From a virus, in IMG/VR virus record IMGVR_UViG_3300013099_001090, positions 1 through 37,766 of that record: DNA of 37,766 nt; one strand, 5' to 3'. The notes beneath the pieces were generated by a model. That model saw only the letters and a list, made by a program, of their open reading frames with translations, did not search any database and was not told where the DNA came from. The position numbers were made by a program, and so were the translations under genes. This document shows, in pieces, positions 1-37,766 of this stretch (the stretch's first letter is position 1; every line of letters starts with the position of its first letter).

Positions 1-3000
1 ATCATCGACACCTTCCAGCTCTTCGCTCTAGGTACCCCCACCGACCCTGCACAGATCGAGCTGACCCACCTCCGGCTGGGTTCGGACTTGATCATCTCGA
101 ACTTCCCTCCGATTGCTAATGCGGGGTCGGACCGGGTGATCTCTGTGGGGCAGGCGGCTCGACTGAATGGGCGGGCCAGCTTCGATGTTGATGGTGCCCC
201 AATCACCTATGCGTGGCGGGCCATAGACGCACCCTTCAACAGCCAGTTCGCTCACGACAATGCCTCGGGGTCTACGACTGACGACGGGGACGCTGATGGG
301 CTCACCGACACCCTGTCCTTCAACACGGGGTCCTTGCCTTCGTGGGTTGCCCAAGAGGACGTGCTTCTCCTTGGGGGGTCTCGCTATGCTGTCGACACGG
401 TCGATAACCCCGGAGGGTTCCTCACTGTTACGACCGACTCCATCCCTGATTCCCTAGCGGGAGCCCCCTTCAGGATCATCCGCCAAAGCATTCTGGTGGG
501 GAAGGAGACAGAGACCCCTCATGTCGTTCCAGATCTTCAAGGGATCTACCGCTTCGAGCTGATCGTCAACGACGGGGAGGCAGACTCTGAGGCCTCAGAG
601 GTTCTGGTATCCGTAGCAGGAGGGCGAGCCCCCTTTGGGGTTGAGCCGGAGGTCGAGTTTCTGTGGGATGGGCTTGGAGACGACTGGCGCTACATCGAGA
701 ACCGGACGGTGTTCCAGGAGTTCTGGCGGGGGACAGCGCAGCTCCTCGGCGGAAAGATGATGGAGGCGTGGCAGTACCACTACAACTTCAACATCGGAGA
801 TGCCCAGCGAGTCTTCCAGAAGAAGTGGCTAGCCTACCGCACCCTGATCGCTGAGTCGGACCCAGAGGATGTCCTCATCTCTCCTCGGTACGGGGCCCTC
901 CTGGCTTCGCACGACTTCACTGGAGCCGACCCCGCAGTCACGGGTAAGACTTTGGTCTTCGAGTACGCCGACGACAGCAGCCCCACAGCCACGGTCGAGG
1001 TGTCTGTCACCTTCACAGCCGATGATCTCAGCACCATCATCAGCGAGATCAACACAGCCCTGATGGGGACGGGCGTCTCTGCCTACTCCTACGAGGTGCA
1101 GAAGCGTGTGTTCAAGGGGGATGGTGGGTCTACGGCTATTGATGCGGATGGGCGCACAGCGGTCTTCCAGTACACTCCCGGAACCCTGCCTTCGTGGGCA
1201 GCCCCCGGAGATTCTCTCGTCCTGAACAGGATTCGCTATGAGATCCTCACCGTCAGTCTGGACTCCTTCTCGGCGGTCGGGGACGGCACCACGGCTGATG
1301 ATGGTGATGCGGATGGGTTCACCGATACCCTGACCTTCACCCCAGCATCCCTGCCCGGCTGGGTAGCTGTAGGGGACACCCTGGATATTGCAGGAGGGCG
1401 GTATGTCATCGCCTTCATCAACAACCCTGGAGGATTGCTTACGGTTGAGGGGGATGTCCTGCCGGACAACCTGACAGGTGAGGACTTCCAGATCGGAGGG
1501 GTACTGGTCATCACCGAGGATGGTGCGACGGCCAGTGAGACCCTCCCCAGCGACCTCCCTGTGGGCACCCTCTTCACGATCTATGGCACAGGGGCCTTAG
1601 GCATCCGCTCAGCAGCCCGAGCCTTCCGCCTCCTGGATACCTCGACAGCGGTAATCGACCTGGGTCTGACCGTCTCGAAGTACAACTACCTGGAGGGCTT
1701 CGGGGGTGCACGAGCCACTGACCGCACTTACCGAGCAGAGCCTGGGGTCGACTTCGTCTTCCTGGGAGTGCAGCGTGGAGATCTGCTGGTCATCAACAAC
1801 GGGCAGACCTTCACCGTCGACCGGGTCCTTGATGACCCGGAGGACGCCACACCCAACCAGCGCCTCCTCCTGACAGAGAGTCTTCCGTTCGACGCCACCC
1901 TCGAATGGGAGGTCCCCTCTATCGTCCTTTCGGATGAGGTCGACTACGAGTCTGAGGGTTCGTACCCCGGGGACATGGTCAAGGCGGAGGTGTACGACGT
2001 CGACACCAATGAGGTGACAGACCTGCGAGGGACCGTAGTAGCGCAGCGAGGGATGCAGCTCGCGGCCCGGCTTGATGGCTTCTTCAGCTCCTTCCTCGAC
2101 GCCGAACGCTATGAGCTGCGGCTCCTGGGGGTGAAGCGGAGGAAGAGCCTGCGGATCGATGCGGAGGTGCGAAGCATCCCCCAGCTCCAGGACAAGGTGG
2201 CCCAGTCAGCTGGCCCCACTCTCTGGAAGGAGAACATCGACTACTACCTGGAGCCGTTCTACCGAGAGACCGATGGCTCGGCGATCCCCATGCTCCAGTT
2301 CCGGGACTCTGTGTTCATCGACCCAGACCTCGAACCCCCCGACATCTTCTGGGCGGAGCTGACCCTGTTCAGCAATGAGCTGAACATCCAGGCTCTCTTC
2401 GGCCGCTTGGCAGGCTTCCTACGTGAGGATGCAGCCCTGTTCGGGGAAGACTTCTCCTACACCTCTTCCGTGGCTGGGCTGCTCTATGCCTACCAGCAGG
2501 GGCCTCGCCCCCGCATCATGAAGACCGGGGCGCAGATCCTATTCGGACAACCCTTCGCCGAGGTGAGGGGCTACATCACTGAGATCCGAGACGATTTCAG
2601 CCCCACCACAGGGCGCATGCTGGTGCAGGATGACGACGGGTTCGAGCCCACCCGTAGTGAGGTGACCCGCGCCTACGTCTACACACAGGATCCCCTGGAC
2701 ACAGCCAACACTTCCGGTCTGGAGATCAACCCAGCCACCCTGGTCCCCTACGCGGTGGGAGATACCATCGAGCAGTTCGCACCCATCGGGACGGGTGTCG
2801 AGATGGTCGACTATATCAACGACCCCGAATGGTACGTGCCCTTTGTTCGCTCCGGCATCCTGACCGAGATCGAAAAGTTCATGACCTTCGTGACCGAGTT
2901 CAACCTCGACCTGGTCTCCATCGTAGGGTTGTCCTTGGCTCAGCAGTTCATCTTCAACGTGAAGCCGACGTACACAGCTCCGATTCTCCTGGGGGTCAAG

Positions 3001-4422
3001 AACCTTCAGGAGGATGTCGACATCGTGGATGTCCTCGACATGGGCCTCACGATGCACCTGTTCGACAGCTTCTGTGCCAGTGGCAGGGCGTTCCTCTACG
3101 ACGACTACCGTGGAGATGGGTCGGTCTGGTCGACCTACGGGGACGGCGCCACCTTCTACGATGGGATCGTGGACTGCGTGTCGGACTATATCGAGCTGTG
3201 CTTGATGATGACCTGGATGGATTACGCCGCTGTCGTAGAGGGGTTGGCTGACATCTCAACGGGCACGGCGACCTACCCTGGAGACTTCAACACCTACACC
3301 CTAGATCTGAACATCGATGGCACGCCCTTCAGCATCACGTTCACTGGGGCGTCTGTCTCTCCGGCTACGATGCTGGGAGAGATCAATGCGGTGTTGGGTG
3401 GGGCTGCCACAGCTAGCTTCGGAGGAGCCAAGGCTTCAGGCACCATCGTGGCCAACGAAGGGATAAACACCATCGATGGGTGGAACTTCGTTCTTGATGA
3501 TGGGGTGAACCCCGCAGTCACCTTCGAGTTCGATGATGATGCCTCTGTGGTGGAGTCTGCAACGCTCCGTGCGCTGACCTTCGTGGGTACAGAGACAGCC
3601 GATCAGATCCGAGACATCATCGTCACGGCGATTACGGACGCCCCTACCCTGGACATCTCGGTATCCTGGATCGGTACGGCGCTGGTCGGCCTGACCAATG
3701 ACCTTGCAGGCACCTTCGGGAATATCACCATCACCACCACAGCTTCCATGGCCGTGGTTGGGATGCTCGGGGGTACGGATACCCTGGTGGTGACCTCAGC
3801 TTCCGTAGGTGTTGCTTCCTACGTTGAGGTGGAGCAGACGACGACGGCCTCCCTCTTCACGACCTTCGGCTTCACCTTGGGAGCAGCGTACAACGCTCAG
3901 ATCATAGGGACCCAGGACCTGTCCGCAGCTATCTACCCAGGGGACTTCTCCGGGCTCACTCTGGAGGTCATCATCGACGGGGGTGGCGGGACCTCTGTGG
4001 TCTTTACCGGGGGCGTGGCGAGTGCTGCGGATGTTCGGGATGAGATCAACACGGCCGTGGGTTACGACGTAGCTGCGATCGATAGCCTGAACCGCTTGGT
4101 ACTCTTCAGCCCCACCACAGGGGTGGCCTCAGAGGTTGAGGTGGGGGCAGCTACTACGGCCTCCCTGTTGACTGTCTTCGGTCTGACAGCTAGCACCCCG
4201 GTCTTCGGGGACGTCTACACGACCCGGAACTACGGGAACGTGATCACGAATAACGCCAACTTCTTCTACGATACGCTGGTCGAGGAAGGTACTATCGCCG
4301 GGGCACCTCCCGTATTCACCCCGTCTGGGGTAACCTTCTGGCCGACCCTAGATATGCCCCTGCTTGCGGGGGACTACCAAGTCTGCGTAGAAATCGATTC
4401 AGGGAACGACGTCCTACCATGA
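1..4422 (+). CDS. Giant tail/baseplate protein with PKD domain and internal beta repeats (5' partial)
   Basis: The reading frame is open from the first base of the window, so the gene starts upstream; a TTG at 88 could be a start but has no special support. At least 1474 codons are visible. A PKD-like domain lies near the visible N-terminus (PPIANAGSD, then SFDVDG and YAWRA). Three diverged copies of a beta module follow, at roughly 270-480, 1120-1290 and 1290-1495, marked by DGDADGxTDTL, LPxWVA and NNPGGxLTV. The central part is non-repetitive and baseplate-like. The C-terminal third (about 3260-4200) repeats another module marked by YPGDF, a TFTG-like turn, EINxxxG and VEVxxxTTASL. PKD and such beta repeats are common in extracellular adhesion and phage tail proteins. 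The stop overlaps the next start (ATGA). Role as a tail, baseplate or adhesin component is inferred. Confidence 0.72.
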   Translation: MIDTFQLFALGTPTDPAQIELTHLRLGSDLIISNFPPIANAGSDRVISVGQAARLNGRASFDVDGAPITYAWRAIDAPFNSQFAHDNASGSTTDDGDADGLTDTLSFNTGSLPSWVAQEDVLLLGGSRYAVDTVDNPGGFLTVTTDSIPDSLAGAPFRIIRQSILVGKETETPHVVPDLQGIYRFELIVNDGEADSEASEVLVSVAGGRAPFGVEPEVEFLWDGLGDDWRYIENRTVFQEFWRGTAQLLGGKMMEAWQYHYNFNIGDAQRVFQKKWLAYRTLIAESDPEDVLISPRYGALLASHDFTGADPAVTGKTLVFEYADDSSPTATVEVSVTFTADDLSTIISEINTALMGTGVSAYSYEVQKRVFKGDGGSTAIDADGRTAVFQYTPGTLPSWAAPGDSLVLNRIRYEILTVSLDSFSAVGDGTTADDGDADGFTDTLTFTPASLPGWVAVGDTLDIAGGRYVIAFINNPGGLLTVEGDVLPDNLTGEDFQIGGVLVITEDGATASETLPSDLPVGTLFTIYGTGALGIRSAARAFRLLDTSTAVIDLGLTVSKYNYLEGFGGARATDRTYRAEPGVDFVFLGVQRGDLLVINNGQTFTVDRVLDDPEDATPNQRLLLTESLPFDATLEWEVPSIVLSDEVDYESEGSYPGDMVKAEVYDVDTNEVTDLRGTVVAQRGMQLAARLDGFFSSFLDAERYELRLLGVKRRKSLRIDAEVRSIPQLQDKVAQSAGPTLWKENIDYYLEPFYRETDGSAIPMLQFRDSVFIDPDLEPPDIFWAELTLFSNELNIQALFGRLAGFLREDAALFGEDFSYTSSVAGLLYAYQQGPRPRIMKTGAQILFGQPFAEVRGYITEIRDDFSPTTGRMLVQDDDGFEPTRSEVTRAYVYTQDPLDTANTSGLEINPATLVPYAVGDTIEQFAPIGTGVEMVDYINDPEWYVPFVRSGILTEIEKFMTFVTEFNLDLVSIVGLSLAQQFIFNVKPTYTAPILLGVKNLQEDVDIVDVLDMGLTMHLFDSFCASGRAFLYDDYRGDGSVWSTYGDGATFYDGIVDCVSDYIELCLMMTWMDYAAVVEGLADISTGTATYPGDFNTYTLDLNIDGTPFSITFTGASVSPATMLGEINAVLGGAATASFGGAKASGTIVANEGINTIDGWNFVLDDGVNPAVTFEFDDDASVVESATLRALTFVGTETADQIRDIIVTAITDAPTLDISVSWIGTALVGLTNDLAGTFGNITITTTASMAVVGMLGGTDTLVVTSASVGVASYVEVEQTTTASLFTTFGFTLGAAYNAQIIGTQDLSAAIYPGDFSGLTLEVIIDGGGGTSVVFTGGVASAADVRDEINTAVGYDVAAIDSLNRLVLFSPTTGVASEVEVGAATTASLLTVFGLTASTPVFGDVYTTRNYGNVITNNANFFYDTLVEEGTIAGAPPVFTPSGVTFWPTLDMPLLAGDYQVCVEIDSGNDVLP

Positions 4423-5057
4423 TGCGCCTACAAGAAGATGTCCCGATCCGCCTGAACCTGGCCATCGATCTGATCTACCCAGACGGATCGGTTGCGGAGT
4501 ATCACCGGAACCACAACATCATCACGAACACAGGCCGCCAGTTCATGGCGGAACTGATCACGGCGTCCTCGTTCGCTGGCCCCTCGTTCGTGCGCCACAA
4601 CAACGACGTGGTCAGGTACATCGGGTTTGGGATCGGTGGGTCCCGCCAGACTGCCTCGTCCCCATCCGTCCCCCCTCTGAGTACATCCTATCCTGGAGCC
4701 ACTCCAGGCCTACAGACCGACACCGATGTCACCGTGGCCATCATGGAGCGCCCGGTCCAGGTAGTCGGCGATCCCCTGTGGATGCGCGAGGTATCGACTC
4801 CAGGGACCTTCCCCACCACAGAGTCGACGCGCTTCATCACGACCTTCAGTCAGACCGACATCAACTTCGGTTCTTTTTCGAGCGTCCCTCTTTCGGAGAT
4901 CGGGCTCTACAAGAGTGGGGCAGATTCCAGTCTGCCCAACGGGACGCTCGGCGCATACCCTGGTGTCGCAGGTGAGCTGATTGCCTACGATACGTTCAAC
5001 CCCATTGAGAAGACGGGGCTGTTCTCTATCCAGGTTCGATGGGAGTGGAGATTCTAG
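4419..5057 (+). CDS. Putative tail/baseplate-associated structural protein
   Basis: A 212-residue protein whose ATG overlaps the stop of the giant tail gene by four bases, which suggests translational coupling. The N-terminus has an amphipathic beta pattern followed by HNIITNTGRQFMAEL, a kind of stretch found in small tail and baseplate proteins that sit between large tail genes. The rest is rich in Ser, Thr, Gly and Pro with alternating hydrophobics, and ends in the aromatic VRWEWRF. No catalytic motif, signal peptide or membrane segment is seen. The next gene begins directly after the stop codon. The structural role rests on position and composition; the exact part is not recognised. Confidence 0.6.
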   Translation: MMRLQEDVPIRLNLAIDLIYPDGSVAEYHRNHNIITNTGRQFMAELITASSFAGPSFVRHNNDVVRYIGFGIGGSRQTASSPSVPPLSTSYPGATPGLQTDTDVTVAIMERPVQVVGDPLWMREVSTPGTFPTTESTRFITTFSQTDINFGSFSSVPLSEIGLYKSGADSSLPNGTLGAYPGVAGELIAYDTFNPIEKTGLFSIQVRWEWRF

Positions 5058-7235
5058 ATGGCCATCAAGACCGCAGCAGAGATCTTTGGTGATGGGACCG
5101 CAGGGAACCCACAGGTTCCGATCGACCTCAATGCCCCCCCAGGGTACAACGCCCTCAGTCGCGGCGTGGCTTTCGGGGAGCAGGTCACCTCGGCCATCAA
5201 GAACCGAACTCCGTACGCTCTGGCTGAGAATGACGAGGACCTCAACACTCGCTTGGCGGACTTCGAGGTCAGGGGTCTCGATGGTGCTTACGACCTGGGC
5301 ACCCTTGGTCCTGCCGGGGGTGGGCGGATCATCAACAAGGATGAGGGGGCTGTTGAGACTGTCTCCTTGTTGACCGTGGGCTACGGTGACGATGTCGCCA
5401 ATGCTCATTTCCGTGCGAACATGTCTGGGGACACCCTCGACGGGGGCACAGGCTTTGACGCCCGCGTAGGTGTTGGGCGCAAGAGTCCTGGGTACGTCGA
5501 CCGTATTGCCGTGGGTCTCACTGATCCCACAGGCACACTCATCGATGCCGCCGGCCAGGCATGCACCCTGGCCAGTGGGGGTACCAACCGTATCCGTTTG
5601 GATAGCGGAGGGCAGTGGAAGCTCAGCTCGGTCACTCAACTGACCCTCCTTCGAGAGATCGTTGAGGTCAGTGGAGGTCTTGCGGCTGAGAATGGTCTCT
5701 ACGTTCTCGCTTCATTCATTACGGATACCACAGCATCCTTCGTCAAGCTGGACGGTACCGCCGCTTCGTTTACCGCTGGGACCGCTACGGTCACCCTTTA
5801 CCGACGGAAGTTCGCTAGCAGCCAGTACGCAGGTGATGGCAACAAGGGTGGGCTGTTCCACGGGGTCCCTGGAGGGTATGCGGCACTCACCCTTATGTCG
5901 GGTATGTCGGACAGCGTTGATTCCGGAGGAGCGACTAATACTCTTCGGATTCCCTACAAGACAGGTGCGGGCGCCCTGCTCGACAATATGCTCGTAGATC
6001 TCTACGGGCGTATCGTCCACAACCTGTCTTCGCAATACCTCGCCGCTGAAACAGAGAACCGTTGGGGCGCCTATGGACACCTCATCGACAAGGTCGCGTC
6101 CAGCCATGCCTACGAAGCAGGGTTCATCTTCCAGGCTCCCAATGCTGTAGCGAACACCTACGGTGTGCAGTCGATGCTGGGTACGGACACTGCCGCCGTG
6201 CCCGAGGCCTGCGCCTTCGCATTCACGGCGTCGGTTACCAACTTGGATTTCACCGGAGCTTCCGGTGGGTCGGACTTCCAGACTGAGGTTCCGATCGGGA
6301 CTCTGGTCCAGATCCTTTCCCCCGCAGCACAGGCTGGGTACTACGTCCTCACAGCCAAGGTGGGGGCGGATACCACAGTAGCTACCCTGGCTACCCTGGG
6401 AGGAGCTTCTCCCGGCTTCCCCACGACGAGCACGGGTACCGCACGCTTCCTCACGGGGGTAAGCCTCGGTAGGCGTTCCTTCAGCAATCTGGATGCCCCC
6501 GCAGGTAACTTCTCCACGATCTCCGATGCGAAGGTGGCGATGCACCTTCAGGCTGAGGAGGGGTCAGGTGGTCTGCTCATCACCATGACGGAGAACGGTG
6601 ATGAAGGGATCCGCATCCACAAGGCTGGCGGCGGTGCTGTCTCCGCAGATAATACTCAGGATCGATTGATCTTCGCGACTAACGTTGCAGGAGAGGTGTA
6701 CTCCTCCGGTAGCCACTACACTGAGGGGGAGTACCTCTACCAAGACACGACGGGCAAGCTGCGCCTGACCACCATCCCCCCACAACTGGGGCAGTCGAAC
6801 AGCCTGGCAGGTACCGCCTACTGGTTGTTGAACAATGCCTTCGGAGCAAACTCCTGGAAGAACCGAACGGATAGTTCGGACATTTCCTTCCCCATCATGC
6901 TCCCCAACGGTGCTGTTCTTCAGGATGTGCACGCTATCGTGAAACAGGGAGCCGTACCAACCAGTCCCATGTCGATGCGAGTATACAAGCGACAAAACAT
7001 GGTGTTTGCTGGGGCCCCCGCAGAGGGGTCTTCACTTCAAATCGGAGGCACGGATACGGGTACCGTGGCTATCACCACCCAAGCACTCAACGTAGGCCCC
7101 ACGCTAGCAGAGACCATCGACAACTCCGACAATACCTATATGGTTACCATCACTGCAAGTGACGGGGGGGCCCCATACGATGAGATCTTCGGCATCCGCC
7201 TTTCCTGGGAAGACCCAGGCCCCCGTAACCACTAG
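5058..7235 (+). CDS. Putative tail fibre / receptor-binding protein
   Basis: A 725-residue protein that starts at an ATG immediately after the upstream stop. The N-terminal ~75 residues are mixed and probably attach to the virion; after that the protein is rich in Gly, Thr, Ser and Ala with repeated short beta strands (for example TTASFVKLDGTAASFTAGT and a later TVATLATLGG segment), as in fibrous tail proteins. The C-terminal ~130 residues (ANSWKNRTDSSDISFPIMLP onward) look like a compact beta domain, as in fibre tips or small carbohydrate-binding heads. No enzyme motif is visible. It is the last gene of the visible tail cluster and lies directly before the lysis-like genes, a usual place for fibre genes. 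A tail spike or other virion surface protein remains possible. Confidence 0.58.
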   Translation: MAIKTAAEIFGDGTAGNPQVPIDLNAPPGYNALSRGVAFGEQVTSAIKNRTPYALAENDEDLNTRLADFEVRGLDGAYDLGTLGPAGGGRIINKDEGAVETVSLLTVGYGDDVANAHFRANMSGDTLDGGTGFDARVGVGRKSPGYVDRIAVGLTDPTGTLIDAAGQACTLASGGTNRIRLDSGGQWKLSSVTQLTLLREIVEVSGGLAAENGLYVLASFITDTTASFVKLDGTAASFTAGTATVTLYRRKFASSQYAGDGNKGGLFHGVPGGYAALTLMSGMSDSVDSGGATNTLRIPYKTGAGALLDNMLVDLYGRIVHNLSSQYLAAETENRWGAYGHLIDKVASSHAYEAGFIFQAPNAVANTYGVQSMLGTDTAAVPEACAFAFTASVTNLDFTGASGGSDFQTEVPIGTLVQILSPAAQAGYYVLTAKVGADTTVATLATLGGASPGFPTTSTGTARFLTGVSLGRRSFSNLDAPAGNFSTISDAKVAMHLQAEEGSGGLLITMTENGDEGIRIHKAGGGAVSADNTQDRLIFATNVAGEVYSSGSHYTEGEYLYQDTTGKLRLTTIPPQLGQSNSLAGTAYWLLNNAFGANSWKNRTDSSDISFPIMLPNGAVLQDVHAIVKQGAVPTSPMSMRVYKRQNMVFAGAPAEGSSLQIGGTDTGTVAITTQALNVGPTLAETIDNSDNTYMVTITASDGGAPYDEIFGIRLSWEDPGPRNH

Positions 7236-7256
7236 GTGTGCCTCGGCCCATGTCTA

Positions 7257-7265
7257 TGGGATAAT
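7257..7265 (+). promoter_or_regulatory. Possible extended -10 promoter before the lysis-like cassette
   Basis: The sequence TGGGATAAT matches an extended -10 element (TGn followed by a TATAAT-like hexamer) and lies 21 bases before the likely start at 7287. No good -35 hexamer is visible upstream. The stretch CTATGGGATAATG also resembles, with one base missing, the minus-strand box seen at four other places. Promoter activity is a guess. Confidence 0.3.
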
Positions 7266-7286
7266 GCCCCTTCAGGAGGAATGAAC

Positions 7287-7640
7287 ATGGGACCTTTCGA
7301 AATGCTCTATGGGTGGCAGGCGGTTCTCTGCGCCATCGTGGCTGTGGGCGTTACTGCCCTCGTGAAGACGGTGCTCGATCTGACGATGGGCAAGGATGAG
7401 CGCAAGGCCAACAGGTGGGTCACTCGTCTCGTCCTTCCGCTGACCCCCATTCTCACCGGGGCCATCTACGCGATGCTCGTCCCCTTCCTACCCGAGGTCA
7501 TCACGACCTGGTTTGCGGACAACGATGTGGCAGCGTGGCAGCAACTTCTCGGCAAGGCTGCCTGGGGTGGTGCCTGTGGCCAGTTCGCCAACTACCTCTA
7601 CGACCGCCTCAAGAAAACGATGGGAGCCTTGCGCCCGTGA
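7287..7640 (+). CDS. Small two-helix membrane protein, candidate holin
   Basis: The reading frame could start at a GTG at 7236, but AGGAGG at 7274-7279 sits seven bases before the ATG at 7287, which gives a 117-residue protein starting MGPFEMLYGW. Two hydrophobic segments are visible, at about residues 9-30 and 47-70, separated by a charged loop (MGKDERKANR). A weaker third segment follows near residue 90, and the tail is basic. Size, topology and position after the fibre gene fit a holin, which forms inner-membrane lesions for lysis. No endolysin is visible in the window, so the holin role is inferred. The stop overlaps the GTG start of the next gene. Confidence 0.5.
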   Translation: MGPFEMLYGWQAVLCAIVAVGVTALVKTVLDLTMGKDERKANRWVTRLVLPLTPILTGAIYAMLVPFLPEVITTWFADNDVAAWQQLLGKAAWGGACGQFANYLYDRLKKTMGALRP

Positions 7641-8943: not shown

Positions 8944-9180
8944 CATGAGCCCAGGTCAATCCATAGGGGCAAAGGAAGAGCCAGCCACCCCACTCACGTG
9001 GGGCAGCCGGGTCTCCCAGAGGTGCCTGCTCGCCTACCCCCTCGAAAGGGTGAACCCGTGGCTGGTACCATGCCGGGTTCGTTCTCTGCGCGAGTCAACA
9101 GTCGACTTGTTACGGTCGTGCTCAGTGTGCTTTTGCTCGTTCAACCTTTTTTTGTTGATGCTTTGGGGGGACTGCCTTTT
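8944..9180 (+). other. Noncoding region with a series of hairpins
   Basis: No convincing gene is seen. Three close inverted repeats stand out: CCCCAC-TCAC-GTGGGG (8988-9003), CCCT-CGAA-AGGG (9039-9050) and a GAACCCG/CGGGTTC stem (9052-9080). A TCAAC/GTTGA repeat flanks a T-tract at 9139-9156. None is followed by a T-run typical of a terminator. Open frames through this stretch on either strand look like read-through of the hairpins or of the tRNA-like gene. It may be a structured 3' untranslated region or a small RNA. Confidence 0.4.
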
Positions 9181-9252
9181 GATGCGAAGCCGGACTCGAA
9201 CCAGCGACCTACGGAACCAAAACCGACGCTCTACCAACTGAGCTATACGCGG
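9181..9252 (-). tRNA. tRNA-like gene, divergent; anticodon probably UUG (Gln)
   Basis: The minus strand shows a canonical D-arm (TAGCTCAGTTGGTAGAGC) and T-arm (GCTGG-TTCGAGT-CCGGC) at tRNA spacing, and a loop TTTTGGT whose best reading is anticodon TTG at 9218-9220. The acceptor (CCGCGTA against TTCGCAT) pairs at only about four of seven positions, and the anticodon stem (GTCGG against TCCGT) is mostly wobble with one C-C mismatch. The D-to-T spacing is one base short of the standard count. CCA is not encoded. It is therefore a degenerate tRNA, a tRNA mimic, or a real tRNA with a sequence error. The box at 9267-9281 lies just upstream on the same strand. Confidence 0.5.
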
Positions 9253-9266
9253 CAACCCCTCCTCTA

Positions 9267-9281
9267 CACTCTGCTGATAAA
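9267..9281 (-). promoter_or_regulatory. Promoter-like box upstream of the tRNA-like gene
   Basis: Minus-strand TTTATCAGCAGAGTG matches the consensus CCTATCAGCATAGTG at 12 of 15 positions. It lies 14 bases upstream of the tRNA-like gene, so it could drive its transcription. It partly overlaps the left arm of the plus-strand terminator. Confidence 0.4.
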
Positions 9282-9299
9282 CCCTTTGGTGGGTTTTTT
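9279..9299 (+). terminator. Intrinsic terminator of the plus-strand tail/lysis block
   Basis: AAACCC and GGGTTT form a perfect six-base stem with loop TTTGGT, and the descending arm continues into TTTTTT (9294-9299). This fits a rho-independent terminator for plus-strand transcription. It lies just before the 3' end of the convergent metallopeptidase gene. Confidence 0.65.
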
Positions 9300-9306
9300 C
9301 AACACG

Positions 9307-10095
9307 TCAGGGCGCGATACCTTCGGGGGGCGGGCCCTTCATGGCGTTGTGGACCTGCCGGAAGATGGGGTCCTCCAGGACCTTGCCGCTCCGGATGTCA
9401 TCGGCTGCCTGGTTCAGCCTTTTTATCATGCTCTTCTTGAAGGGCCACATCGCGTAGTAGTTCATCGACGTAAAGTGGGTTGCCATCCACTCGATCGTAG
9501 AGGGCATGATGGAGCCGTGCTTCCAGTAGTTCATAGCCATCGACATGGTGTACCCCCGCACCTCCCACTTCATACGCCAGTAGGCTGGGATGGGTGCAGC
9601 GAAGACCAGGAAGGCCAGGAGGATGAGGGTCCAGGGGCCGAGGAGGAAGAAGCCCAGGAGAGTCGTCGTCAAGGTAGCCAAGCCGATGGTGACCCAGGCT
9701 GAGATCATCCCAGGCATGAGTGCCCCCAACAGGAGACCGGGGAGCAGGTGGGGGAGGGCAGGGACGGCGAGGATCTGCGGGAAGAGGTAGGCCAGGTCGT
9801 ATTTGATGAGGCCATGCTTCTTCTTGTCATAGGCGTGGACGAACTCATGCGCCATCGTCTTCGCTCTCGGGAGTTGGTTGAGCAGCACCGACGCCTCGCT
9901 CGTGAAGTAGATCGTCGACCCAATGGTGGTCGTGAACCGCGTCATGAACGTGGGGTTGAAGAGGCGAGCAATGACTCGGTCGATCAACCACATGAACTTC
10001 GACTCGTCCTTGAACTTGACGAAGACGTTGAGGAAGATGGCCAGCCGCAGCAGGGCCTTGAGGGTGGGATCAGTTGCTTGTGTTGCTAGGTTCAT
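9307..10095 (-). CDS. HExxH membrane metallopeptidase (M48/HtpX-like layout)
   Basis: A 262-residue protein when started at the ATG at 10095; an upstream in-frame start at 10143 would include the promoter. The zinc motif HEFVH lies at residues 83-87. It is followed by two to three hydrophobic helices (about 101-127, 130-150 and 155-172), then KWEVRGY with Glu178 as a plausible third zinc ligand. Transmembrane helices between HExxH and a distal Glu are the layout of M48/HtpX-type membrane proteases, though overall similarity is not otherwise obvious. It may process envelope or phage membrane proteins. No Shine-Dalgarno sequence precedes the ATG, and an extended -10 lies seven bases upstream, which suggests a leaderless mRNA. 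Confidence 0.65.
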   Translation of the reverse strand: MNLATQATDPTLKALLRLAIFLNVFVKFKDESKFMWLIDRVIARLFNPTFMTRFTTTIGSTIYFTSEASVLLNQLPRAKTMAHEFVHAYDKKKHGLIKYDLAYLFPQILAVPALPHLLPGLLLGALMPGMISAWVTIGLATLTTTLLGFFLLGPWTLILLAFLVFAAPIPAYWRMKWEVRGYTMSMAMNYWKHGSIMPSTIEWMATHFTSMNYYAMWPFKKSMIKRLNQAADDIRSGKVLEDPIFRQVHNAMKGPPPEGIAP

Positions 10096-10102
10096 GGCGG
10101 GG

Positions 10103-10111
10103 AGTATAGCA
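10103..10111 (-). promoter_or_regulatory. Extended -10 promoter for the metallopeptidase gene
   Basis: The minus strand reads TGCTATACT, an extended -10 element (TGn plus TATACT). The hexamer ends seven bases before the ATG at 10095, so transcription would start at or next to the start codon. No matching -35 is seen. A GC-rich hairpin (GGTGC-GCAA-GCACC) lies a little upstream and may end the previous transcript. Confidence 0.45.
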
Positions 10112-10155
10112 AAAAGGCTTTGGGCAGGTGCTTGCGCACCCACCCTGCCTTCTGT

Positions 10156-10380: not shown

Positions 10381-10547
10381 CACTGGCCTCCGTTGCGGGT
10401 GGTGATGGTGGTGTCGAGGGTGGCGGGATAGGGCACGAGCACCCGGGCACAGTCCTCCACGAGCTGTACCTCCCAACCCTTAGGTCCCACCGCCATTACG
10501 CAGAGGGAGACCATCTTTACGGTCGTCGTCACTGTTACAGTCTTCAC
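10380..10547 (-). CDS. Small hypothetical protein, GTG start
   Basis: 55 residues from a GTG at 10547, chosen because GAAAGG lies six bases upstream; longer starts at 10586 (ATG) and 10622 run into the promoter box and terminator. The sequence is Thr/Val-rich with beta-prone segments (VTVTTTVKMVSL) and two Cys. It is first in the short unit behind the box at 10584-10598 and is coupled to the next gene by ATGA. Function is unknown. Confidence 0.5.
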   Translation of the reverse strand: MKTVTVTTTVKMVSLCVMAVGPKGWEVQLVEDCARVLVPYPATLDTTITTRNGGQ

Positions 10548-10583
10548 AAGTAACCTTTCTGAAATCAGAGTAGATCTCTGCTT

Positions 10584-10598
10584 CATTATGCTAATAGG
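10584..10598 (-). promoter_or_regulatory. Promoter-like box upstream of the 10547 gene
   Basis: Minus-strand CCTATTAGCATAATG matches the CCTATCAGCATAGTG consensus at 13 of 15 positions. It follows directly after the terminator of the upstream 16-kb unit and precedes the small genes and metallopeptidase. The embedded CATAAT resembles a -10 hexamer, but no TTGACA-like -35 is visible. Confidence 0.5.
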
Positions 10599-10620
10599 TC
10601 GATCCGATCTGATTTTAGGC

Positions 10621-10652
10621 AAAAGAAAAGCCGACCCCCGTGAAGGGCCGGC
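10621..10652 (-). terminator. Strong intrinsic terminator at the end of the replication operon
   Basis: On the minus strand GCCGGCCC and GGGTCGGC form an eight-pair stem (one G-U) with a seven-base loop, followed at once by TTTTCTTTT. It begins five bases after the stop of the 49-residue gene, so it ends the long minus-strand unit. Confidence 0.85.
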
Positions 10653-10657
10653 TCAAC

Positions 10658-12046: not shown

Positions 12047-12551
12047 CTCCATCCACCAGTGTAATGAAGGACTCACGATCGGCTGCGTAGGTAGCCAGGG
12101 TCACCTCGACCCGTGGGTGCTCAGGGTCATGCCGCTTGCTGATCGTAACGTCCAGGTTGTTGCAGTCATCGATACCCGACCCTCGGGCGACACCGTCTTC
12201 GATGAGCTTGATGTAGTTGGAAGCGTCCTTCTTCTTGTACCTCGTCTTGATCTTGTTCGTTTTGGTCCAGGTCTTGTTGAGTAGGTTGGTGAAGTAAAGA
12301 GTGACGTGCAGCTCTGCCCTTCCACCATGCTGATAGACGCATTCGTGTGCGGTCTTCCAGTCCATGGAGGACTTCATGACAGCACTCTTCACCGCATCCC
12401 GGAAGGCTTTCCCGGCCGCCTTGAGGTGCATCGTCCCTCGGTACACGGTGAACGCGTCATTGATGGAGATGGGCTCTTGGTCCACCACCGCCGTCGTCAC
12501 GAACACCGGAATGCTGAGGTTAGCCTCGTCGACCACTGAAAGGTTTCCCAC
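12039..12551 (-). CDS. RusA-like Holliday junction resolvase
   Basis: A ~170-residue protein counted from a GTG at 12551; a GTG at 12536 is an alternative start. The RusA signature is visible: KKDASNYIKLIEDG (Asp109, Asn112, Lys114, Asp119) followed by GIDDCNN (Asp128, Asp129), which matches the conserved Asp/Lys catalytic set of RusA, a metal-dependent endonuclease that resolves four-way DNA junctions. The length is somewhat above the usual ~120 residues because of an N-terminal extension. It lies beside a Cas4/RecB-like nuclease and a RecA-like gene, consistent with recombination or clearing of branched DNA before packaging. The start overlaps the upstream gene by 32 bases. Confidence 0.75.
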   Translation of the reverse strand: MGNLSVVDEANLSIPVFVTTAVVDQEPISINDAFTVYRGTMHLKAAGKAFRDAVKSAVMKSSMDWKTAHECVYQHGGRAELHVTLYFTNLLNKTWTKTNKIKTRYKKKDASNYIKLIEDGVARGSGIDDCNNLDVTISKRHDPEHPRVEVTLATYAADRESFITLVDGDG

Positions 12552-26304: not shown

Positions 26305-26849
26305 TCGGGGTGGTCCTCGTCACGGGGTGGTGGTCGGAAGGGGAAGAAGTCTACGTTCTCCGCCATCTCTTTGCCCTGGTGGAACACGGCGTGGAACATG
26401 GCTTGGAAAACGTTCTTGAAGATCCTGGAGACCAGGCTCTCCCCTCGGTCAGGAAGGAACGTTGGGCTCGGTCGGTACGCTCCCCCCTCTAGTCGGGCCG
26501 TCTTGAGATGAGCGTGGTCGTCATCGGGGTATACCACCGTCGCCGAGGGTGAGGGGGCCTTCCTGATTGCTTCCTGCCTGGATGTGTCCTGCCTGGTCGG
26601 GAGAGTGGTTCGCCCAAACCCTGATCTGGTAGAGGCCAGAACATGAGAATCGTCCCCCCTTTCTCTTCTGTGGGTGGTCAGGCGGCACCTCATTCGAGAT
26701 GGGCACGCCTGCCACCGGTAACCCTCGTAGCTCCCACCATTACATAGGTTCGAGAACTCCGAGGACCCTGGGTCCTCATACTCGGACCAGGTATCACAGT
26801 TCTTGAGATCACCATGTGGGCTCTTGGCAGAGCCTACAACTGCGGTCAT
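26301..26849 (-). CDS. Hypothetical protein, first gene of the replication operon
   Basis: 182 residues from ATG 26849, which has AGGAGG five bases upstream. Four Cys lie in the N-terminal third (NCDTWSEYED, NLCNGG, ACPSRMRCR), a spacing that could hold a zinc or Fe-S site. The middle is polar and unstructured, and the C-terminus has helical SRIFKNVFQAMFHAVFHQ and a Pro-rich end. The start is 20 bases from the promoter-like box, so it is the first protein of the 16-kb unit. The family is not recognised. An early regulatory or host-directed role is only a guess. Confidence 0.55.
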   Translation of the reverse strand: MTAVVGSAKSPHGDLKNCDTWSEYEDPGSSEFSNLCNGGSYEGYRWQACPSRMRCRLTTHRRERGDDSHVLASTRSGFGRTTLPTRQDTSRQEAIRKAPSPSATVVYPDDDHAHLKTARLEGGAYRPSPTFLPDRGESLVSRIFKNVFQAMFHAVFHQGKEMAENVDFFPFRPPPRDEDHPE

Positions 26850-26868: not shown

Positions 26869-26883
26869 CACTATGCTGATAGG
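26869..26883 (-). promoter_or_regulatory. Promoter-like box of the 16-kb minus-strand replication operon
   Basis: Minus-strand CCTATCAGCATAGTG is identical to the consensus drawn from four sites. It lies 20 bases before the ATG of the first operon gene, with only TATAGAAAAGGAGGCAAGC between them. No TTGACA-like -35 is visible on this strand. It is divergent to the plus-strand promoter at 26889. Confidence 0.55.
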
Positions 26884-26888
26884 CCGGA

Positions 26889-26918
26889 TTGACCGTTCGT
26901 CTCTGCCAGAAGTATCCT
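26889..26918 (+). promoter_or_regulatory. Sigma70-like promoter giving a leaderless head-gene mRNA
   Basis: TTGACC (26889-26894), an 18-base spacer and TATCCT (26913-26918) form a -35/-10 pair. The -10 ends six bases before the ATG at 26925, so transcription should begin at or next to the start codon. The promoter before the RpoB-like gene has the same geometry. Confidence 0.5.
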
Positions 26919-26924
26919 TGGCGA

Positions 26925-28334
26925 ATGCAGAACGCTGGCGTAATCCTCGACGTCTATGACGACTCCAAGGGGCTCGTCCTCCGAGAGAAGCTCGCGGGAC
27001 AAAACCTCCCACCCCAACTAGCTCAAGCGCAGCTCCTGTCTCGGGAGAAGCTCGCGTCTCTTCCGGATCGGCTCTTCGCTCTGGTTGCCTATGATGGTGC
27101 CCAGGTCATGCGCAAGTACGCCGTGCATGATGGGGGGCACTGCGCCACGTCCATCGTCTACTTCCTGGAGTGCGGGCACCTCCTTCCGGAGGAGGCTCAG
27201 AAGGTGGCGGCTGTCAACCTGGTGAATGCCTGCGCGTGGTACGACATCGATCCCCCCGAGCCTCTCGTCAAGGTAGCCTTGATTGGGAAGGCCCTGAACG
27301 CAGGGATGCTGGGACTCCAGGCCAAGGGCTCAGCCGACCAGGCTATGGGGGGTTTCGGCAAGGTGAAGTCGGACATGAACCAGTACCGCCAGATTCAGGC
27401 GACTGCTCAGGTCCCCGCCGAGGGGAGCCACATCGACAAGCAGGCTGACCTCACCGGCACCGAGATGATGCCGATGTCGGGGGTCACCACCAAGCCCCTG
27501 AGGTCTCAGAAGAACACAGCTGCCAAACCTCAGTCGGGCTTCGTGGGTCCGAAGGTGTCGAGCCAGGAGTGGTTCGGACCCATCGATATCACAGGGCTCA
27601 GCGCCCCCGTGGAAACCTACGAGGCGGCCAGCGAGCACCACTGTCTCCCAGGGCGCTATCCGATCGACAGCTACGGACAGGTGAAGCAGGCCGAGGCCTA
27701 TTTCGAGGAGCACTACCACACGCTCGACCTCCCGGACCGCAGGACATACGCCTTCAACTTGGTTGGTCGCGCCAATGATTTGGGGGTCAAGGTAGCTGGT
27801 ACGGTCCTCGATTATGCGGGCCACCGTTTGGGGAGGCACCTCCCGTCCGAGCTGCTGAAGCGGGCTTCGACCTACCGGGAGCACGATGCCGGCCGAATCT
27901 ACGAGGAGCTTCAGACCAAGGTAGCCTCCATGGCTCCCGATGACGTGGTCCGGGCCCTGCACTTGGCTGACTCTGCCTCCGGGGCGGCGCACGCCTACGG
28001 GAAACCTGTGGTAGGGTTCCGTGATCCATTCGCCGCAGTCTTTGGGGTGAAGGTGGCCAAGGAGCAGATCACGGGGGAAGACGATGCGTCGGACCACGCG
28101 GATCATGAGGCGGCAGCGGAGTTCGTCTGGAACCGGGGTTCGGACTATGTGACTGGGGATCAACTCCGGTTCATGGCCAACCGCAACGAAGAGTTGGATG
28201 GCGTTCTAGGAGAAGGCTTTTCAAAAGAGTACAGCAAGGATCCCGTGGGAACGTTCAAAGCCCTACCAGATCCCCAGAAACATGTGCTAGCAAGACTAGC
28301 TTCCGACAACAGTGGCGGAAGCTCCCGGCAGTAG
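26925..28334 (+). CDS. Putative virion/head-module protein
   Basis: 469 residues from ATG 26925; a TTG at 26889 is in frame but lies in the -35 element. No Shine-Dalgarno is visible before the ATG. The N-terminal domain (~residues 1-130) is compact, with RKYAVHDGGHCATSIVYF and helical segments (LPEEAQKVAAVNLVNACAWY). A polar linker follows (~150-210), then a second domain with GRYPIDSYGQVKQAEAYFEE and DLPDRRTYAFNLV. The C-terminus is charged and flexible. It begins the plus-strand module that ends with the portal, so a capsid, scaffold or internal head role is likely. No family is certain. Confidence 0.5.
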   Translation: MQNAGVILDVYDDSKGLVLREKLAGQNLPPQLAQAQLLSREKLASLPDRLFALVAYDGAQVMRKYAVHDGGHCATSIVYFLECGHLLPEEAQKVAAVNLVNACAWYDIDPPEPLVKVALIGKALNAGMLGLQAKGSADQAMGGFGKVKSDMNQYRQIQATAQVPAEGSHIDKQADLTGTEMMPMSGVTTKPLRSQKNTAAKPQSGFVGPKVSSQEWFGPIDITGLSAPVETYEAASEHHCLPGRYPIDSYGQVKQAEAYFEEHYHTLDLPDRRTYAFNLVGRANDLGVKVAGTVLDYAGHRLGRHLPSELLKRASTYREHDAGRIYEELQTKVASMAPDDVVRALHLADSASGAAHAYGKPVVGFRDPFAAVFGVKVAKEQITGEDDASDHADHEAAAEFVWNRGSDYVTGDQLRFMANRNEELDGVLGEGFSKEYSKDPVGTFKALPDPQKHVLARLASDNSGGSSRQ

Positions 28335-37261: not shown

Positions 37262-37276
37262 CAGTTTACTGATAGG
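37262..37276 (-). promoter_or_regulatory. Promoter-like box of the MoxR/vWA operon
   Basis: Minus-strand CCTATCAGTAAACTG matches the CCTATCAGCATAGTG consensus at 12 of 15 positions. It lies directly upstream of the leader of the acidic peptide gene and is divergent to the RpoB-like gene. Confidence 0.48.
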
Positions 37277-37292
37277 CTCTTACCGACCTGCA

Positions 37293-37322
37293 TTGACCCG
37301 CTTCCGAAGCACCACGTAAACT
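37293..37322 (+). promoter_or_regulatory. Sigma70-like promoter giving a leaderless RpoB-like mRNA
   Basis: TTGACC (37293-37298), an 18-base spacer and TAAACT (37317-37322) are followed by six bases and the GTG at 37329. The geometry is identical to that of the promoter at 26889-26918. No Shine-Dalgarno precedes the GTG. Confidence 0.5.
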
Positions 37323-37328
37323 CCAGCT

Positions 37329-37766
37329 GTGCTGAACACGAACCCACAGGAACAGTTTGAAGAGCTGAAAGGCCAGCTCCTCAGCCAAGTACGGGATACG
37401 TTTCCGATCCAGGACTCGAAGGGTCGGTTCGAGGTCCGGGTAAAGAACCTCAAGGTCAAAGACAACCAGGGTGTCGATGACATCCGAGGGCAGCTTCAGT
37501 CACGCCTCAAGGGGAAGACCTGGGCAGCCCCCGTCTTCGCCACTGTCGAGATCGTCGACTCCAAGGGGAAGGTCCTCGTCTCCAAACCCAACACCCGCAT
37601 CGCTGAGATACCCAGGCTGACGCGGCACTACTCCTACATCGTGGATGGTAAGGAGAAGATGGTCGCCAACCAGTGGCGGCTGAAGTCTGGGGCGTACGTC
37701 AAGGAGACCCAGAAGGAGGGGGAGTACGAGGCGCAGTTCCAGCTCGCCAAGGGCAAGAGCTTCGAC
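37329..37766 (+). CDS. RNA polymerase beta (RpoB)-like subunit, N-terminal part (3' partial)
   Basis: From GTG 37329, the first start after an in-frame stop at 37317, 146 codons run to the window edge. The order of segments matches the N-terminal region of bacterial beta: RDTFPIQDSKGRFEVRV (E. coli: FPIQSYSGNSELQY), SRLKGKTWAAPVFATVEIVD (RGVTYSAPLRVKLRLVIY), then RIAEIPRLTRHYSYIVDGKE ([20 protein letters not shown]), VANQWRLKSGAYVK (VSQLHRSPGVFF) and a probable strand near the edge. It is clearly RpoB-like but very divergent and shortened, as in phage multisubunit polymerases of the phiKZ/AR9 type. The E. coli segments are recalled from memory. It may transcribe phage genes from the special boxes seen here. 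Confidence 0.75.
   Translation, partial: MLNTNPQEQFEELKGQLLSQVRDTFPIQDSKGRFEVRVKNLKVKDNQGVDDIRGQLQSRLKGKTWAAPVFATVEIVDSKGKVLVSKPNTRIAEIPRLTRHYSYIVDGKEKMVANQWRLKSGAYVKETQKEGEYEAQFQLAKGKSFD

Follow-up and report, generated by a model that had tools for sequence, protein, structure and literature searches.

A predicted phage-specific bipartite promoter in a group of large phages that encode their own RNA polymerase and a sigma-70 relative

A 15-base box recurs on the minus strand of a 37,766-nt (37.8 kb) phage fragment, IMG/VR record IMGVR_UViG_3300013099_001090, positions 1–37,766 (hereafter the window), and raises the question of what kind of signal it is and by which transcription machinery it might be read. 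The initial annotation described four copies, each on the minus strand and upstream of a transcription unit, and ascribed them to either a phage-specific promoter or an operator. All four were found to be present as described. The box sites and the features associated with them are listed here, with ranks taken from a scoring matrix trained on three related genomes only (G001, G003 and G004), the window being left out:

26869–26883, minus strand: box (−10-like element and discriminator), exact copy, matrix rank 2, predicted +1 at its final G (26869)
37262–37276, minus strand: box of the MoxR/vWA operon, three mismatches, matrix rank 3, predicted +1 at 37262
37293–37296, minus strand: TCAA where a −35-like element is expected for the 37276 box, from its sequence and the positional enrichment of AA 18 bases upstream in relatives
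10584–10598, minus strand: box of the small-gene unit (GTG start at 10547), two mismatches, matrix rank 1, predicted +1 at 10584
10613–10619, minus strand: CCTAAAA where a −35-like element is expected for the 10598 box, from its sequence and positional enrichment in relatives
10628–10654, minus strand: intrinsic terminator immediately before the 10598 box, a 12-pair stem followed by TTCTTTTGCC
9267–9281, minus strand: weak box before tRNA-Gln, three mismatches, matrix rank 7, predicted +1 at 9267
9180–9253, minus strand: tRNA-Gln (TTG) downstream of the weak box (ARAGORN; Rfam, 39 bits)
12323–12337, minus strand: box-like sequence inside a gene, a fifth match that was absent from the initial annotation

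With up to three mismatches allowed, the 15-mer was matched five times in the window against a mean of 0.64 in shuffled versions of it, five matches being reached in 0 of 100 shuffles. A matrix scan of all window positions placed 10598, 26883 and 37276 at ranks 1, 2 and 3. The site at 9281, which lies 13 bases upstream of the tRNA-Gln gene, has a score expected by chance approximately two to three times per window; it is weak on sequence alone and is supported by its position and by an A-run (9294–9299) at the place of the upstream element described below. The fifth match was rejected as a promoter box, as it lies inside a gene and was judged to be a coding coincidence (codons for Y-x-x-G-G); the equivalent position of G001 (58224) gives a match for the same reason, since Y-x-x-G-G is encoded there too.

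The box at 26883 has the replication operon downstream of it, with the first ATG at 26840, and boxes were found at the orthologous place in three relatives (G001 43151, G003 17900 and G005 39834); a good upstream element is absent at this site. The box at 37276 is divergent from an RNA polymerase gene, and a box or box-like element was present in this intergenic region in 11 of 11 other genomes compared, being degenerate in G011. Its TCAA element consists of the same bases as the TTGA of the divergent host-like promoter. The order seen at 10598, a terminator and then a box, was also found in G001. It should also be noted that a short hairpin lies at the start of several predicted transcripts, after the box and before a second Shine-Dalgarno sequence (G001 79342, 108138 and 135384; window 10565–10581), these hairpins possibly being mRNA 5′ stabilisers. 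A separate sequence, TTTTTGCTATACT, lies at 10100–10120 on the minus strand, shortly before the ATG of the gene at 9307–10095, and might serve as an extended −10 promoter within this minus-strand unit.

To examine the box beyond the window, relatives were identified through the DNA polymerase I of the window, giving a near set (G001–G006) at 52–61% identity to this protein and a far set of ten contigs (G007–G016) at 32–36%. No relatives were found by scans with the helicase, the first operon gene or the metallopeptidase, or by a nucleotide search of cultured phages. Gene calls were made with an in-house script, not a published caller. In the 168.9-kb genome G001 the window 15-mer gave 20 matches compared with one for the reversed control; since the pattern had been derived from the window, this test is independent. 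The consensus of the G001 sites is CCTATRAGCARGGTGAAGGAG; nearly all of them are intergenic, many lie directly behind a terminator and approximately half lie 25–27 bases ahead of a start codon. The core CCTATVAG was intergenic at 23 of 27 sites in G001, 26 of 27 in G003 and 18 of 22 in G004, where permuted words gave means of 2.1, 1.6 and 1.2 intergenic hits, respectively.

The box was also recovered by a de novo search for 8-mers enriched upstream of genes, in which no motif was supplied. The top word was CCTATAAG in G001 and CCTATCAG in G003, and among the leading words were CTATGAGC and CCTATCAG in G004, GGGATAAC in G007, GGGATAAG in G011, GGCATAAC/A in G008 and GGCATAAC in G009. The words of these seven relatives align in one register, with letters that vary by phage clade (CCTATMAG, GGGATAAS and GGCATAAM). 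The pooled orientation was 138:6, the box being directed towards a gene of the same strand at 138 of 144 intergenic sites. A location mainly inside genes or a lack of orientation bias, either of which had been named in advance as speaking against a promoter, was looked for and not seen. One gene with a box, 43 bases upstream, is the tmRNA gene of G004. This phage-borne tmRNA is located at L072:9119–9527 (G004 147719–148127) and has the tag ANDNSYAPAALAA. Among other RNAs, a match to CyVA-1 RNA was obtained with Rfam at L062:7807–7883 (G003 126607–126683), with 47.7 bits against a cut-off of 41.4. Being intergenic, gene-oriented and genome-wide, the box is best read as a phage-specific promoter throughout a group of large phages with their own RNA polymerase and their own sigma factor. 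Its genome-wide distribution, its orientation, its bipartite architecture of fixed spacing, its conservation at orthologous places and its de novo recovery in relatives bear out the promoter reading of the initial annotation.

Alignment of the sites revealed a second element. The dinucleotide AA peaks 18 bases upstream of the first box base, at 34 of 80 near-set and 46 of 66 far-set sites, while at other offsets outside the immediate shoulder of the peak it was mostly found at fewer than 12 sites. This upstream A-rich element has the consensus GCWAA and occupies the −35 position. TG was found 12 to 13 bases after the first box base (28 and 19 of 80 near-set sites; 39 of 66 far-set sites). If the TATAAG-like hexamer is taken as the −10, approximately 17 bases separate it from the A-rich element and TG falls at −1/+1, which is a promoter geometry. 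With an upstream element and with TG at the expected start, this is a bipartite promoter and not an operator or leader element; the box is its −10 region (CCTATMAG, up to the conserved TG at the expected start), with the A-rich element at the −35 position. A recurrent TTTGCTAA of G001 was considered as a separate box and rejected, as aligned logos of several genomes show it to be this −35-position element. The boxes had been described as being without a sigma-70 −35; TTGACA is indeed absent, but a conserved A-rich element stands in its place across the family and can be recognised at three of the four sites in the window.

When host sigma-70 criteria were applied (TTGACA-like −35, spacer of 16–18, TATAAT-like −10), no window box site was listed by the promoter scan, and the promoters that fit this pattern are those of a second class on the plus strand:

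26889–26918, plus strand: TTGACC-N18-TATCCT, followed after 7 bases by the start codon; conserved in G001 and G003
26925–28334, plus strand: gene of unknown function behind this leaderless promoter, no match in PHROG or Pfam
37293–37322, plus strand: TTGACC-N18-TAAACT ahead of the RNA polymerase gene, followed after 7 bases by its GTG; conserved in relatives

The initial annotation had set these plus-strand promoters apart as another class, and both classes do exist and are conserved as classes. The promoter of the polymerase gene was found to be kept as TTGACC-N18-TAGACT-N6-GTG in G001, G003, G004 and G006, the same arrangement also occurs at a 472-aa gene in G001 and G003, and several genes in the structural blocks of G001 are preceded by GGTAGACT-N6-ATG. 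The start codon follows the −10 by 6–7 bases at window 26889–26925 and 37293–37329 and at G001 77708–78658, 83783–84478 and 106210–108057. This second class is host-like, and the mRNAs of the polymerase and of several structural-block genes are apparently leaderless. In the window, second-class promoters overlap the box region back to back (e.g., 26869–26894), and such an overlap could allow the two classes to exclude each other.

An RpoB-like polymerase had been named in the initial annotation and proved to be real, its gene being divergent from the 37276 box:

37329–37766, plus strand: fused beta/beta-prime RNA polymerase, first 146 codons, cut by the end of the window, its alignment with the beginning of the 2059-aa protein of G001 being clear by eye

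A frame with RpoB domains of approximately 2060 to 2890 codons was detected in five of six near and ten of ten far contigs (15 of 16), the only contig without one being G005, a 44.6-kb fragment. The 2059-aa G001 polymerase contains Rpb2 domains 3 and 6 followed by Rpb1 domains 2 and 5 in a single chain, with the catalytic site NGDIDGD, and matched bacterial beta-prime (E 1e-83) and beta (E 1e-68). It aligns to beta-prime residues 180–378, a stretch that includes the coiled coil by which beta-prime binds sigma in bacteria. In the 12 genomes for which the gene start was available, the polymerase gene and the operon next to it are divergent; a box or box-like element faces the operon (in G011 a degenerate one), whereas the element facing the polymerase gene is of another kind. 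Wherever both genes were found, TerL is on the same strand as the polymerase and downstream of it. In G003 the polymerase (1089–7292) and TerL (155416–156987) are both on the minus strand, and this placement agrees with the synteny of the other genomes only if the contig is circular or permuted. A polymerase tree split the CCTATVAG phages from the GGSATAAS phages with full support. Box and polymerase thus diverge along the same clades, although, with two main clades and one split, this reflects shared descent and is weak evidence of co-evolution.

A sigma factor was sought in the same genomes. Searches of the near set with Pfam Sigma70_r2 and Sigma70_r4 gave no hit. A 269-aa protein of G001 matched PHROG 351 (RNA polymerase sigma factor) at 9e-5; orthologs of it are present in seven of seven long relatives, five of which match PHROG 351. 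Positions 79–251 of the family profile matched RpoD/SigA chains (E 1e-10) over regions 2 to 4, with regions 2, 3 and 4 matching sigma in order, as in the sigma-70 family. An AlphaFold model of moderate quality (pLDDT 74.5, pTM 0.41) had sigma chains among its top Foldseek matches (E 1e-6, global TM approximately 0.3), and the modelled protein would appear to have a sigma fold, with agreement at the level of domains. The sigma gene itself has a box 23–27 bases upstream in G003, G004, G009 and G011, and in G001 and Arash (see below) a box is located one gene further upstream, this gene being small in G001. By comparison, a box at a distance of up to 60 bases was seen for only 3–12% of genes. A box directly upstream is absent from the sigma genes of G007, G008 and D69. 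The window fragment does not include the sigma gene. Among 50,697 phage records this sigma was found only in four, all with the polymerase, namely D69, D148, D181 and Arash.

In the same 50,697 records, near full-length matches to the polymerase were obtained in Vibrio phages D69, D148 and D181. The next match was Salmonella phage Arash (OQ632216), with 72% coverage in the first gene, the polymerase being split into two genes. Among the leading upstream words found de novo were GGTATAAG in Arash and GTTATAAG in D69. In Arash, GGTATAAG was intergenic at 31 of 31 sites. Box sites were on the minus strand in 33 of 36 cases in Arash and 22 of 24 in D69, where this is the non-structural strand. A second class in D69, TAAAATAT, was found on the strand with the annotated terminase and tail genes in 13 of 15 cases (Fisher 1e-6 for the class split), and in Arash CTAAAATA-like sites were found ahead of both the portal/polymerase unit and the second gene for the polymerase. 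The two classes of Arash abut back to back at 137629/137630 and 139405/139406 (L160), an arrangement in which they may likewise exclude each other. Arash and D69 also carry a second, separate sigma (Arash gp196, 120656–121693; D69 133187–133963), which is a candidate reader of the TAAAATA class; none of the gp196 type was found by tblastn in the metagenomic contigs studied.

The virion proteome of Arash has been determined, with 116 proteins detected, and gp206 (beta) was the most-detected protein (PMC10585845). Arash virions also hold gp216 (beta-prime) and the sigma gp10, the latter with 24 unique peptides and full coverage, and the authors offered early transcription or carry-over as explanations (PMC10585845). 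Neither gp196 nor promoters are named in that paper (PMC10585845). As the Arash polymerase is approximately 30% identical to that of G001, virion carriage in the window phage rests on homology.

The motif, its architecture, its orientation, its conservation and its co-occurrence with the polymerase and the sigma were all computed here. As the box is found group-wide in phages with their own polymerase and sigma, it is probably the start signal of an injected transcription machine. We consider it likely that the boxes are early promoters of a virion-delivered, sigma-dependent phage polymerase, with recognition, the exact +1 and timing as predicted parts of this reading. By analogy with Arash, the polymerase and sigma would travel in the virion and enter the cell with the DNA, and the box would be read by the fused single-chain beta/beta-prime enzyme programmed by the phage sigma-70-family protein. 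With both proteins entering together with the DNA, the box promoters would switch on early genes, namely the small genes, replication, MoxR/vWA and the tRNA, as well as the sigma gene in several genomes. The second class, for which host polymerase is the probable reader, would drive the polymerase gene and, as seen in relatives, structural genes, and the products would again be packaged into virions. For the window phage, binding, start site, timing and packaging are what we infer. We lean, with less assurance, towards a wider proposal in which this clade packages and injects a complete sigma-dependent holoenzyme, the box being its cognate bipartite promoter and in several genomes driving the sigma gene, while polymerase and structural genes would be placed on a separate back-to-back class and the promoter letters would have diverged clade by clade with the machinery.

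Other readers of the box can be envisaged. The phage sigma might act on the host core polymerase, as T4 gp55 does with the E. coli enzyme, leaving the phage polymerase to serve other promoters. The phage protein is a recognisable sigma-70 relative, as this would require, and jumbo phages without their own polymerase commonly put a sigma on the host core (PMC7824862). Such an arrangement is nevertheless thought unlikely, given that the sigma family is confined to polymerase-carrying records in the phage collection, that the phage polymerase aligns to beta-prime through the sigma-binding stretch and that polymerase and sigma are both found in Arash virions (PMC10585845). Alternatively, the phage polymerase might read the box without sigma, through domains of its own or an unrelated specificity subunit similar to AR9 gp226, with the sigma serving the second class, which needs a reader too. 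The specificity subunit of phiKZ and AR9 has no sequence similarity to sigma (PMC7598289), which provides a precedent; however, −35-like and −10-like elements with a spacing of approximately 17 bases are sigma-like, the sigma gene itself lies behind a box in several genomes, and the separate second sigma of Arash and D69 could serve the second class, making this quite improbable. Ordinary host sigma-70 promoters with a degenerate −35 would explain the resemblance of TATAAG to TATAAT and the spacing of the A-rich element near 17. It is hard to reconcile with this that the letters change with the phage clade, that conservation exceeds the −10 hexamer, that TTGACA is absent, that these intergenic regions already contain a separate conserved TTGACC-N18-TAGACT class, and that the cultured Salmonella phage Arash has GGTATAAG and not the E. 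coli consensus; this reading is considered very improbable.

Two explanations in which the box is no promoter at all were given hardly any weight. A 5′ leader or ribosome-binding element, similar to the start-associated sequences of some mycobacteriophages, is suggested by the half of the G001 boxes that are 25–27 bases before the start codon and run into the Shine-Dalgarno sequence. However, the distance to the start is variable, reaching 50 bases and more with hairpins between, the box is often behind a terminator and has the conserved A-rich element still further from the gene; boxes also precede the tmRNA and, at the weak window site, probably the tRNA, which argues against a translation element, and this candidate was rejected. 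The operator proposed in the initial annotation finds some support in the imperfect dyad CTAT-N4-ATAG of the window copy, but this partial dyad is lost in relatives (CCTATAAGCAAGGTG, GGCATAACAA) and a palindromic operator would not need the 138:6 orientation, so that a repressor operator is barely credible and this part of the earlier proposal was abandoned.

The preferred reading, early promoters read by an injected phage polymerase with its sigma, can be set against what is known of other phages. To our knowledge, no factor recognisable as sigma by sequence accompanies the virion polymerases studied so far (phiKZ/AR9, N4, crAss-like and P23-45). A recognisable sigma-70 relative together with a bipartite promoter across a clade is new, no earlier report of these promoters having been found in the literature searched, coverage of which was incomplete. 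A bacterial-like phage enzyme that has a sigma-70 relative of its own, together with a bipartite promoter that can be read, would constitute a minimal transcription system of natural origin in which sigma/core co-evolution could be examined. For environmental phages known mostly from metagenomes, the promoter map gives the likely early/late gene split, and the cultured phages Arash and D69 make the proposal testable at once.

The late promoters of T4 (TATAAATA, gp55) also involve a phage sigma and a −10-like element. They are read by the host core, are coupled to replication, serve late genes and have no −35 element. The box was rejected as a T4-type late promoter, the gene set being wrong, most box sites of D69 and Arash being on the non-structural strand and an upstream element being present. 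Phage P23-45 resembles the present group in having phage single-chain polymerases with their own promoter motifs and in leaving late genes to the host polymerase, as is probable here, but its enzymes belong to the other, divergent two-barrel clade and no sigma has been reported for them. The mReC phages are likewise metagenomic tailed phages with cellular-like beta and beta-prime (PMC7481178); the paper describing them (Weinheimer and Aylward, 2020) mentions neither sigma factors nor promoters (PMC7481178), and the mReC-type Gp23 capsid (PF07068) gave no hit in 14 records in a search without a positive control.

Early promoters for a virion polymerase are of a known kind in phiKZ and AR9, where a motif of approximately 10 bases near −10, differing between phages, lies upstream of early operons (PMC7598289). 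These phages also encode a beta/beta-prime polymerase (PMC7598289), as was found here. In contrast to them, the polymerase described here is one chain of approximately 2060–2890 aa (two in Arash) and recognisable with Pfam, a sigma-70-family protein is encoded and the promoter has a −35-like element. According to a review, polymerase-encoding jumbo phages lack sigma homologs, phiKZ gp68 being only structurally sigma-like (PMC13282480). As a sigma-70 relative is encoded here, whereas phages of the phiKZ/AR9 type have no sigma homolog, the group was not assigned to that type. Arash, D69, D148 and D181 are likewise close to the window group and have a homologous polymerase and an orthologous sigma, and in Arash and D69 a homologous box (GGTATAAG/GTTATAAG). 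Unlike the window group, Arash and the Vibrio phages have a split polymerase and a second class that is TAAAATA-like instead of TTGACC-N18-TAGACT.
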